A stretch of DNA of 64,000 nucleotides from Deltaproteobacteria bacterium SG8_13 (GCA_001303025.1 LJNK01000017.1:62001-126000); one strand, 5' to 3'; numbered from the stretch's first letter, positions 14,612 through 19,801 are shown. Numbers and translations are program-made. Notes: generated by a model from the letters alone, not told the origin.

Positions 14612-16237
14612 ATGAAACTCGCGAAACCGCTAGCCTGCGCCCTTACCATCGGCTGTCTGCTGGTCTTGATCACATTTACCCCGGCAGTGTTCGCAGCAGT
14701 GCAAGATCCATCCGCAAGCGCTCCCGGCCGGGTGATGGCCCGTCAGGCCACCAAGGAAAATCAGCTGTGGATTACGGCCGATCACACCAAGCATGAAGCG
14801 CTGAAGAAAACCTTCACCACCGGCGCGGAAATTACCAAGGCCTGCCTGTCCTGCCATTCCGAAGCCAAAGCGCAATTTGAAAAAACCATTCACTGGCAGT
14901 GGATGGTCCCGGGCACGGAAAGCGATAAAAAGATCGGCAAGGCCGGATATTCGCTGAACAACTTCTGTATTTCCACCAACAAAACCAAGGACAACAGTTG
15001 CCTGGCCTGCCATCCCGGCTGGGGGACCGCCACGGAGGCCATCAACTGCCTGGTCTGCCACGGCCGGGAAACCATCAACTGGGATGAGGCGTTCGAGGAT
15101 ATGCAGTACTTCATGGGGGAATCGGACGAGGAGTCCCGGGAAATGGCTGCCGACCTGCAGTCCCAGATCCAGAGTGCCGTTCAGGCGGTGGGCCGCCCCA
15201 CCCGTAAAAATTGCGGCTCGTGCCACTTTTACGGCGGTGGCGGTGACGGGGTGAAGCATGGCGACCTCGACTCATCGCTCACCAAGCCCAACAAGGATCT
15301 GGATGTTCACATGGGCAGCGACGGCCAGAACTTCGACTGTGTTCGCTGCCACACCACGCAGCTTCACAACATTGCCGGCCGAATGTACACGGCCCCGGCC
15401 TATACCGAGCGCAAGAGCCTGATCGAAGACGATTTGGCCTCCAAGATCACCTGCGAGTCCTGCCACAGCGCAACACCGCACGAAGCCGGTCACAAAGCCA
15501 ATGACCACACCGACAAAGTGGCCTGCCAGAGCTGTCACATCCCCACCGTCGCCCGGGTGAATCCCACCAAGATGTCCTGGGACTGGTCCGAAGCCGGCAG
15601 GAAGAAAGACGGCAAGCCCTACAAAACCAAGGACGAGTTCGGCAAGTACGACTACATGTCGATCAAGGGGCAGATGAAATGGGCCAAGAACATCCAGCCG
15701 GAATACTTCTGGTTCAACGGATCCATCGCTTCCAGGACCACGCGGGACGAAATCGATCCGGCCGGTGTGGTGGCGGTGAGCCAGCCGGTGGGAGGACAAA
15801 GCGATCCGCAGTCCCGAATTTTTCCCTTTAAGATCCACAGAGGGGTTCAGCCGTATGACAAGGTGCACAAAACCCTGCTGGCCCCGCTGCTCTCCGGCGA
15901 TGACGGATACTGGAAGACGCTGGACTGGGACCGAGCCCTTTCCAAGGGCCAGGAGGCGTTGGGATTACCGTTTTCCGGGCAGTTCGACTTTGTCGAAACC
16001 ACCTACGTGTTTCCGCTTACCCACATGGTAGCGCCGAAAGCCACCGTGGTCACCTGCAAAGAGTGCCATGCCCGTGAAGACGGTCGGCTGGCTGAACTGG
16101 CCGGATTTTACATGCCGGGACGCGATCAATGGCGGTTCATGGACGCCATGGGGTGGGTGCTGGTGATCGGCTCGCTGCTGGGAGTGGTTCTGCACGGCCT
16201 GGGACGGGTGTTCACCAACGGCAGGAAGGAGGGCTGA
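14612..16237 (+). CDS. Octaheme tetrathionate reductase (OTR)-family cytochrome c with C-terminal TM anchor (Cys paralogue)
   Basis: Eight CxxCH (CLSCH, CLACH, CLVCH, CGSCH, CVRCH, CESCH, CQSCH, CKECH), NNFC motif, signal peptide, C-terminal hydrophobic segment. Confidence 0.85.
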   Translation: MKLAKPLACALTIGCLLVLITFTPAVFAAVQDPSASAPGRVMARQATKENQLWITADHTKHEALKKTFTTGAEITKACLSCHSEAKAQFEKTIHWQWMVPGTESDKKIGKAGYSLNNFCISTNKTKDNSCLACHPGWGTATEAINCLVCHGRETINWDEAFEDMQYFMGESDEESREMAADLQSQIQSAVQAVGRPTRKNCGSCHFYGGGGDGVKHGDLDSSLTKPNKDLDVHMGSDGQNFDCVRCHTTQLHNIAGRMYTAPAYTERKSLIEDDLASKITCESCHSATPHEAGHKANDHTDKVACQSCHIPTVARVNPTKMSWDWSEAGRKKDGKPYKTKDEFGKYDYMSIKGQMKWAKNIQPEYFWFNGSIASRTTRDEIDPAGVVAVSQPVGGQSDPQSRIFPFKIHRGVQPYDKVHKTLLAPLLSGDDGYWKTLDWDRALSKGQEALGLPFSGQFDFVETTYVFPLTHMVAPKATVVTCKECHAREDGRLAELAGFYMPGRDQWRFMDAMGWVLVIGSLLGVVLHGLGRVFTNGRKEG

Positions 16238-16240
16238 TCC

Positions 16241-16897
16241 ATGAAAATGGTCAACATATACCTTTATACCCGCTATGAGCGGTTCTGGCACTGGTTGCAG
16301 ATGGCGCTCATCGCCGTCCTGCTGGCGACCGGTTTCGAAATCCACGGCCTGTTCGCCTGGTTGGGTTTCGAGGAGGCCGTCGGCTTCCATAACTTCGTTG
16401 GATTGAGCTGGCTGATCCTGTTCGCATTCTTTGTTTTCTGGGTGTTTACCACCGGTGAATGGCATCAGTATGTGCCCACAACCCGCAAAATGTTCTCCAT
16501 GATCCGTTATTACGGCTACGGAATTTTCAGAGGCGAACCGCACCCGGTGCCCAAAAGAAAGGATGCCAAGCACAATCCGCTGCAGCGGTTGGTATACCTG
16601 TCGCTGGCGGCCCTGCTGCTGCCGGTTCAGATGGCCACCGGATTTCTCTACTGGTCTTACAATTCATGGAAGGACTGGGGCCTGCAATGGCTGCCGCTTG
16701 AAGCTGTGGCGCTGATACACCTTGGCGGTGCCTTTGCTATCCTCTCCTTTCTGGTGGTTCACGTCTACATGACCACCACCGGGCACTCTCTCTTGGCGCA
16801 TATCCGTGCCATGATCACCGGCTGGGAAGAAGTGCAGGAAGGCACCCGAATCGAGGATTGGGAAAGAGCCCGCGATAAGCGCTATTCAACCGCCTAG
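16241..16897 (+). CDS. Cytochrome b (b561/thiosulfate-reductase-like membrane subunit)
   Basis: Multiple TM helices with conserved His (RFWHWLQ, FHNFVGLSW, VHVYMTTTGHS). Confidence 0.82.
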   Translation: MKMVNIYLYTRYERFWHWLQMALIAVLLATGFEIHGLFAWLGFEEAVGFHNFVGLSWLILFAFFVFWVFTTGEWHQYVPTTRKMFSMIRYYGYGIFRGEPHPVPKRKDAKHNPLQRLVYLSLAALLLPVQMATGFLYWSYNSWKDWGLQWLPLEAVALIHLGGAFAILSFLVVHVYMTTTGHSLLAHIRAMITGWEEVQEGTRIEDWERARDKRYSTA

Positions 16898-17467: not shown

Positions 17468-19132
17468 ATGAAAACAGGGATCGATGTAATCAAGGCGATG
17501 CTGCCGGTGGCAATCGGTGTGCTGCTGCTGACCCCGGCGCCGGCGCCGGCGCAAACCGAGAAGGTGGATACCGGTCTGGCCCCGGGACGCGTCATGGCAC
17601 AGCAGGCCGTAAAGGAAAAGCAGCTCTGGATCACCGCCGACCACAGCAAGCACGAGGTGCTCCAGCAGCAGTTCACTTCCGGCCCGCAGGTCACCAAAGC
17701 CTGTCTTTCCTGCCACAGCGAAGCCGCTTCCCAGTTTCACCAGACGATTCACTGGACCTGGCTCGATCCGGCGACTGTGGAAAGCAAGGTCCTGGGGAAA
17801 GGCGGACTGTCGATCAACAACTTCTGAGTGATCGCCAAAAGCAACGAGGCTCGTTGCACATCCTGTCATGCCGGCTACGGTTGGAAGGGCAATGACTTTG
17901 ACTTCACCGACCAGACCGGGGTCGACTGTCTGGTCTGCCATGAACAGACCGGGACGTACAAAAAGTTTCCGGCCGGTGCCGGAAATCCCGCTCCCAGGGA
18001 AATGGTTTTCCCCGGTAACGGGAAAACCTACCATCCGCCGGACTGGAACAAAGTGGCCCAAAGCGTGGGGCGCCCGACCCGCAACAACTGCGGGACCTGC
18101 CACTTCTTCGGCGGCGGCGGTGACGGCGTCAAACACGGAGACCTGGATTCTTCGCTGATGAAGCCGAACAAGATGCTCGATGTTCACATGGGCACAGACG
18201 GCCAGAACTTCGACTGCGTTCGCTGTCACTCCACCACCCTGCACAACATCGCCGGTCGTGTGTACACCACCCCGGCTTACGAGCACCGCAAGAGCCTGAT
18301 CGAAGACGACCTGGCATCCAAGATTACCTGCGAATCCTGCCACAGCAGCTCCCCCCACAAAGAAGATGCCAAGGCCAACGACCACACCGACAAGGTCGCC
18401 TGCCAGAGCTGTCACGTTCCCCGGTTTGCACGGGTGAACCCGACGAAGATGTGGTGGGACTGGTCGCAGGCCGGAAAGAAAAAAAACGGCAAGCCATACA
18501 AAGTCAAGGGGGAGCTGGAAAGGCCGGAATACGACACACTCAAGGGCGACATGAAGTGGGCAAAAGACGTGGTGCCGGAGTATTACTGGTACAACGGTTC
18601 CATTGAGCACCTTACCGTCAAGGATGTTATCGATCCGGGCAAAGATGTTGTCATTAACCGGCCGGTGGGCGACAAAGACGACATCCACTCCCGGATATTT
18701 CCGTTCAAGGTCCACCGCGGCAAGCAGCCCTACGACAAGGTGAACAAAACCCTGGTGGTCCCCCATCTCTTCCCCAAAGGTCCTGCCGATGCGGATGCAT
18801 ACTGGAAAACCTTCGACTGGGGCAAAGCGATTGCTTTCGGGATGGACTACACCGGGTTGCCGTATTCCGGAGAATACGACTTTGTCGAAACCAGCTACGT
18901 TTTCCCGATCACGCACATGGTGGCGCCGAAAGACAACGTGGTCGCCTGCAAGGAGTGCCATGCCCACGAAGGAGGGCGGCTGGCCAAGCTGACCGGATTT
19001 TACATGCCCGGACGCGACAACTTTCGGGCACTCGACACCCTCGGCTGGATTGTGGTTATCGGGGCACTGCTGGGTGTCGTTCTGCACGGATTGGGCCGCG
19101 TATTTACCGCCAACGGCAGAAAGGAGCAATAA
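17468..19132 (+). CDS. OTR-family octaheme cytochrome c, candidate selenoprotein (in-frame TGA at 17825-17827 = Sec)
   Basis: ORFs 17468-17827 and 17828-19132 are contiguous in one frame; TGA replaces the Cys of NNFC seen in the tandem paralogue; eight CxxCH in the read-through product; SECIS-like hairpin at +14. Confidence 0.85.
17841..17857 (+). promoter_or_regulatory. Putative bacterial SECIS element
   Basis: GCAACGA-GGC-TCGTTGC, perfect 7-bp stem, 13 nt after the TGA, loop begins with G at +21. Confidence 0.75.
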
Positions 19133-19135
19133 CCC

Positions 19136-19801
19136 ATGGAACATGCGAAAATGGTCAACATATATCTGTATACCCGCTACGAGCGTTTCTGGCACTGGCT
19201 GCAGAGTGCTATCATCATCCTGCTGCTGATCACCGGATTTGAAGTGCACGGCAGCTTCCGCCTGCTGGGTTTTCGCACGGCCGTCGACACCCACAGCTTC
19301 GTGGGGCTGTCCTGGCTGATTTTGTTTGCGTTTTTTATTTTCTGGATCTTCACCACCGGCGAATGGCGGCAGTACGCCCCGACCACCCGCAAGATGCTGG
19401 CCGTGGTGCGCTATTACAGCTACGGTATTTTCCGGGGGGAATCCCACCCGGTTCCCAAACGCAAAGAGGCCAAGCACAACCCCCTGCAGCGCCTGGTGTA
19501 TCTGTCGCTGGCGGCCCTGCTGCTGCCGATTCAGATGGCCACCGGCTTTTTGTACTGGTCGTACAACTCCTGGCCGGCCTGGGGCCTGGACTGGTTGTCG
19601 CTGCCGGTGGTGGCCGCGATCCACATGGCCGGAGCCTTTGCCATCCTCTCTTTTCTTGTGGTCCATCTCTACATGATTACCACCGGGCACACCATTTCTG
19701 CCCACACCCGCGCCATGATTACCGGCTGGGAAGAGGTCGAAGAAGGAACCCGAATCGAGGATTGGGAGCAAAAAGAAAGAAAGTCACCGCAGACCGATTG
19801 A
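19136..19801 (+). CDS. Cytochrome b (second copy, partner of Sec-OTR)
   Basis: Paralogue of 16241-16897 (MVNIYLYTRYERFWHWLQ...). Confidence 0.82.
   Translation: MEHAKMVNIYLYTRYERFWHWLQSAIIILLLITGFEVHGSFRLLGFRTAVDTHSFVGLSWLILFAFFIFWIFTTGEWRQYAPTTRKMLAVVRYYSYGIFRGESHPVPKRKEAKHNPLQRLVYLSLAALLLPIQMATGFLYWSYNSWPAWGLDWLSLPVVAAIHMAGAFAILSFLVVHLYMITTGHTISAHTRAMITGWEEVEEGTRIEDWEQKERKSPQTD

Follow-up and report, generated by a model that had tools for sequence, protein, structure and literature searches.

Why does one bacterial genome carry, head to tail, two octaheme reductases that belong to the OTR family (TIGR04315) and are anchored in the membrane, one with cysteine and the other with selenocysteine (Sec) at the active site? 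The question is raised by a 64,000-nucleotide stretch of Deltaproteobacteria bacterium SG8_13 (GCA_001303025.1, LJNK01000017.1:62001-126000), called here the window; all positions are counted from its first letter. The host is a member of a sulfur-cycling group. A first-pass annotation had described two modules of the same gene order and proposed that the Sec version serves a faster or different substrate, or that the two are switched by selenium in the way of the Cys/Sec pairs of formate dehydrogenase or hydrogenase. Judged by their sequences, the two OTRs are instead ancient paralogues of separate subfamilies, which we call types A and B. The pair is probably best explained as two reductases that act on different sulfur substrates and share a sigma-54 regulator, rather than as selenium-responsive isozymes.

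Organization of the two modules

The genes of the two modules are as follows.

12973..13314, forward strand: monoheme cytochrome c, first gene of the Cys module; weak PF13442 match under the cut-off
13388..14524, forward strand: triple-rhodanese protein, putative lipoprotein; three PF00581 stretches, lipobox recognized by eye
14612..16237, forward strand: type B octaheme OTR of 541 amino acids with active-site Cys (NNFC); TIGR04315, 524 bits
16241..16897, forward strand: cytochrome b561 (PF01292), partner of the Cys OTR
17468..19132, forward strand: type A octaheme OTR of 554 amino acids with predicted selenocysteine 120 (NNFU); TIGR04315, 624 bits; 1SP3, E 4e-120
19136..19801, forward strand: cytochrome b561 (PF01292), partner of the Sec OTR

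Both OTRs score above the curated TIGR04315 cut-off of 375 bits, and both retain the Lys153-bearing motif of the catalytic heme, GGGGDGVKHGD. The annotated eight hemes per protein agree with the eight CXXCH motifs counted in each, and the annotated C-terminal anchor with a hydrophobic helix in both, a trait of the wider family (66/74 type A Cys forms, 20/22 type A Sec forms and 40/40 type B forms). The two OTR/cytochrome b561 units (14612-16897 and 17468-19801) are separated by 570 bp, and the order of OTR followed by cytochrome b561 holds for both. However, the Cys module starts at 12973 and not at 14612: since the monoheme cytochrome c and the triple rhodanese accompany most relatives of this OTR, we count it as a module of four genes. 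A misassembly at the junction of the two modules is unlikely; the contig that contains the window has 155,941 bases.

Two subfamilies of OTR

For comparison, we collected 162 OTR frames from the window and 160 other loci, whose flanks mostly span 4-6 kb and are shorter where contigs end; merging identical cores left 146 distinct sequences. The trees are of the 'quick' type, and all counts hinge on which genomes were sampled. In a tree of 115 cores, from which the columns of the Sec/Cys site had been left out, type B forms one clade with an SH-aLRT (approximate likelihood ratio test) value of 100. The Cys copy of the window falls within this clade, and the active site is Cys in all 40 distinct type B sequences. 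The Sec copy belongs to type A, near loci L175, L177 and L049 and a Desulfobacter clade in which Sec and Cys are mixed.

Head-to-tail orientation, about 63% protein identity, near-identical C-termini and 77% identity of the cytochrome b genes might all point to a recent tandem duplication followed by a Cys-to-Sec change in one copy. The OTR tree argues strongly against it: forcing the two into sister positions costs 177 log units, and the approximately unbiased (AU) test, run on a quick tree of 43 rows, rejects the grouping (p-AU 4.1e-46). Moreover, the identity along the protein is that of other A-B pairs, with no excess similarity and therefore no sign of gene conversion. Recent duplication combined with gene conversion of the OTRs was rejected on these two grounds, and we regard duplication followed by a change of residue as very improbable. 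The phylogeny, which the first-pass annotation had named as a check, thus shows that the Sec copy did not arise as a recent decayed duplicate.

The window pair is least alike around hemes 2-3, beside the active site, where identity is 24-42% compared with 54-89% elsewhere, so that in sequence terms the region around the catalytic heme is where types A and B differ most. Together with the separate subfamilies and the different partner genes, this remodelling bears out the proposed diversification of the two modules. What sets them apart, however, is not the Cys/Sec residue. The OTR tree requires eight Sec/Cys changes, and these lie within type A; thus the residues interchange inside one subfamily, and none of the type B sequences has Sec even though almost every sampled genome encodes the elongation factor SelB.

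Co-occurrence of the two types

If the modules were a selenium-responsive isozyme pair, the Cys copy would replace the Sec copy when selenium is short. The shared fold, active-site position and type of cytochrome b partner, and the proximity of the two in one genome, are in keeping with this idea. Genomes were typed for co-occurrence by score, profile span and frame length, with sequence checks for the fetched loci. Type B is somewhat more common alongside Sec type A (5/13 genomes) than alongside Cys type A (6/35), but the difference is not significant (Fisher p 0.14). Eight of the 13 genomes with Sec type A lack type B, and many genomes have type B without type A. The members of such a pair would be close paralogues set apart mainly by the Cys/Sec residue, whereas these copies share only about 63% of their residues, belong to distinct subfamilies and have different accessory genes. 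The proposed parallel with formate dehydrogenase and hydrogenase pairs is thus not supported, and a selenium switch is an unlikely explanation. The juxtaposition itself is rare in this sampling. Type B is present in 11 of the 48 genomes with a type A OTR, both are on one contig only in the genome of the window, and no second OTR was found in the other 160 loci within the flanks given above.

The selenocysteine codon and its hairpin

Two elements within the type A gene bear on the reading of its in-frame TGA.

17825..17827, forward strand: TGA, predicted to be decoded as selenocysteine (Sec120)
17841..17857, forward strand: hairpin GCAACGAGGCUCGUUGC of the selenocysteine insertion sequence (SECIS) type, loop GGC, 20 nt past the UGA

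The annotated NNFC/NNFU difference stands. The Shewanella OTR (1SP3) aligns over the full core, and Sec120 falls on its active-site Cys64; in 114 distinct OTRs the aligned residue is likewise Cys. TGA is present in 32 of the 146 distinct OTRs, every time at this site. According to PMC13188914, a bacterial SECIS has a loop of 3-9 nt with G among the first two, a stem of 4-16 bp, a distance of 16-37 nt from the UGA and a minimum free energy of at most -7.5. The window hairpin lies within all four limits, with its GGC loop, 7 bp, 20 nt and -7.5 kcal/mol (17 nt) or -10.8 kcal/mol (48 nt). It is identical in 18 of the 22 type A Sec forms, synonymous positions included, and in two type C forms. The other 12 of the 32 Sec OTRs have a different hairpin with loop AGGU or AGUU; this second design, 24 nt past the UGA, belongs to more distant Sec OTRs (L187-L193, L195, L090, L108, L111 and L117). 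Since L194 and L196 bear the first design despite their place in a distant subfamily, the hairpin seems to have switched.

Sec and Cys forms also differ in codon choice at the hairpin. The Arg codon is CGT in 18/18 Sec forms versus 7/47 Cys forms with the same motif (Fisher 1e-10, calculated on related and hence not independent sequences). At +7 from the site, every Sec form has Ala or Cys, where type A Cys forms mostly have Pro; Ala or Cys puts a G in the hairpin loop, which fits the need for a loop G. The genome further encodes tRNA-Sec (RF01852, 76.5 bits, anticodon tca) and SelB (TIGR00475, 328 bits, the gene being cut by the contig start). A mechanical list of open reading frames divides the gene at the TGA, as it would if this were a true stop and the Sec copy either broken or split between two genes, one a short N-terminal piece, the other a frame starting from GTG at 17828. 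The position of the TGA in all 32 OTRs, a hairpin kept to the base, the Sec machinery and eight intact heme motifs make this scarcely credible, and the stop codon or pseudogene reading was rejected on the first two counts. Sequence comparison thus gives good support for reading the TGA at 17825 as selenocysteine, served by a SECIS of its own. An Rfam scan of the window found no family reaching its gathering score.

Two other candidate explanations were discarded. The exact SECIS pattern occurs in four of 395 genomes of the phylum, and all four places are within Sec OTRs, which speaks against a hairpin shared with other selenoproteins. Missing Sec machinery does not account for the Cys forms, since SelB is found in 58 of 63 genomes, among them each of the 37 with a completeness of 90% or more and a contamination of 5% or less.

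An OTR of Desulfatitalea sp. Site_C24 (L052:4001-5650) has TGT at the site and the 17-nt SECIS hairpin unchanged; its genome keeps a piece of SelB, cut by the contig end. Because the hairpin has outlived the codon, this gene probably represents a recent Sec-to-Cys change. Such changes are rated rare, and known mainly for FdhA and SelD, in PMC13188914. Separately, four longer frames of the OTR family (G042:C12, G304:C42, G056:C254 and G227:C117; 718-1019 amino acids) contain one TGA each and match the profile up to position 429. They are possibly another Sec subfamily.

Partner genes and regulation

Cytochrome b561 lies downstream of the OTR in 94/96 type A and 33/40 type B loci. In addition, type B OTRs are adjoined by the monoheme cytochrome c (37/40) and the triple rhodanese (25/40), and some of the loci without partner genes may be cut by contig ends. 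The monoheme cytochrome c adjoins no type A OTR except that of the window, and the rhodanese occurs in only three other type A loci, transcribed in the opposite direction. The features outside the two modules are listed below.

10091..11455, reverse strand: candidate regulator of both modules, a sigma-54 activator (PF00158, PF00989, HTH_8) with Cys in its N-terminal PAS domain
11584..11599, forward strand: consensus sigma-54 site, zero mismatches, upstream of the small DsrE-like genes
11664..12008, forward strand: small protein without Pfam match, adjoining the DsrE-like gene; relatives in 5 type B loci
12083..12277, forward strand: small protein of the intermediate gene, without significant domain match; relatives in 11 type B loci
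12383..12691, forward strand: DsrE/DsrF-like protein (PF02635, E 3.7e-5); relatives in 11 type B loci
12848..12863, forward strand: consensus sigma-54 site, zero mismatches, candidate promoter of the Cys module
16928..16963, forward strand: strong hairpin 3' of the Cys module, -27.3 kcal/mol, without T run; may signal processing or termination
17286..17301, forward strand: weak sigma-54-like site, two mismatches, upstream of the Sec module
19864..19900, forward strand: predicted intrinsic terminator 3' of the Sec module, -30.7 kcal/mol, with T run

Relatives of the N-terminal PAS of the activator are encoded in 27/39 other type B and 21/95 other type A loci, the weaker matches among which may be other activators. 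Scanning for the consensus TGGCACN5TTGCW with at most one mismatch gave sites upstream of 12/36 type B and 18/94 type A modules and none in matched coding stretches (0/36 for the type B control), coding DNA being unlike intergenic DNA in composition. Variants of the form TGGCATN5TTGCT recur upstream of other type A Sec OTRs. The separate promoters suggested earlier are therefore plausible, with a predicted sigma-54 site before each module, but the second site is weak and the 570-bp gap yielded no sigma-70-like site. Zero-mismatch sigma-54 sites are also present elsewhere in the window, at 30224-30239 and 34408-34423.

Possible functions

We consider it likely that Sec type A and type B are separate membrane-anchored octaheme reductases for sulfur compounds. 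Each OTR is encoded with its own cytochrome b561, presumably its link to the quinone pool. Type A may reduce tetrathionate or a comparable compound of sulfur (or selenium), and a selenolate beside the Lys-ligated heme would participate in the chemistry; Sec would then be a feature of rate or robustness that is gained and lost within type A. That Sec gives a faster enzyme is a generality for selenoenzymes and does not come from OTR. Type B might act on a sulfane- or polysulfide-type compound, passing sulfur to or from the rhodanese, and the sigma-54 PAS activator encoded next to the modules would turn both on whenever the acceptor is available.

The proposal draws on characterized relatives. 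Purified recombinant OTR of an orange Beggiatoaceae (BOGUAY_2386), with a cytochrome b subunit gene among the genes downstream, reduced tetrathionate better than nitrite (PMC6449678), and tetrathionate raises expression of an Acidobacteriota otr 36-fold (PMC8528874). In Desulfurivibrio dismutans, the Psr operon includes a triple-rhodanese sulfurtransferase that is considered a sulfur acceptor outside the cytoplasmic membrane (PMC12142623). Because of this tetrathionate biochemistry and the D. dismutans protein, we infer by analogy that type B handles sulfur compounds.

The modules might alternatively be chiefly nitrite or hydroxylamine reductases or selenite detoxifiers. In vitro, the S. oneidensis OTR reduces nitrite and hydroxylamine as well (cited in PMC4911364 and PMC11024163), and a rhodanese-bearing ext cluster of Geobacter has been tied to selenite reduction (PMC5877670). 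However, the rhodanese and DsrE-like genes around type B suggest sulfur, the Beggiatoaceae enzyme prefers tetrathionate to nitrite, and the window rhodanese scores 34.4 bits against an ExtH cut-off of 200. Overall, we find this alternative doubtful. About equally doubtful is that the pair is one functional unit under one sigma-54 regulator, the type B module and Sec type A acting one after the other on a single sulfur or selenium substrate; the Sec enzyme could, for instance, convert tetrathionate to thiosulfate and the other module could transfer sulfane sulfur.

Several points weigh against two sulfur reductases under common control, the nitrite and hydroxylamine activity of the Shewanella enzyme among them. 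The argument from partner genes for a sulfur substrate is indirect, and the open PMC literature searched reports no substrate for a Sec OTR or a type B OTR. The Sec module has only a weak sigma-54 site, and many relatives lack one altogether. Finally, the tree of the cytochrome b genes does not separate A from B; the AU test does not reject the window pair as sisters (p-AU 0.66), and exchange between the modules is therefore possible there.

Relation to known systems

The OTR of Shewanella oneidensis (SO4144, 1SP3, TIGR04315) shares the family, the eight hemes and the Lys motif with both window proteins, and its Cys64 aligns with Sec120 as well as with the Cys of the other copy. Unlike them, it is described in PMC6449678 as soluble and periplasmic; the window OTRs are anchored, accompanied by a cytochrome b561 gene, and one has Sec. 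TDIS_1882-1883 of Thermosulfurimonas dismutans and BOGUAY_2386 likewise combine an OTR with a nearby cytochrome b gene, but in the available descriptions these are single copies and Sec is unmentioned. The selenocytochrome ExtKL and ExtH of Geobacter sulfurreducens offer another parallel, in that a multiheme cytochrome with Sec is encoded in one cluster with a rhodanese-like gene. However, ExtKL is a pentaheme protein of another family (NF040886) in a cluster with a porin, whereas the window rhodanese goes with the Cys copy and, by its score, falls outside ExtH.

Sec in TIGR04315 is itself already known from a selenoproteome review of 2026 (PMC13188914), and WP_331457571.1 is labelled a selenoprotein in GenBank. 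In its available part, the review has a table without the Sec motif and gives no SECIS, phylogeny, gene context or type B pairing for this family. Beyond that one table line, the open PMC literature searched yielded nothing on Sec in TIGR04315; earlier work may exist elsewhere. What is added here is where exactly Sec lies, its SECIS, a set of 32 Sec sequences, and cases in which close relatives have naturally swapped Cys and Sec. Sec beside a catalytic multiheme centre has been little studied. Because of these swaps, including the Desulfatitalea TGT gene with its SECIS relic, the benefit of Sec to a heme reductase becomes directly testable within a single Desulfobacter-type clade. The type B module, with its rhodanese and DsrE-like neighbours, is in turn a candidate for an uncharacterised route of sulfur respiration.

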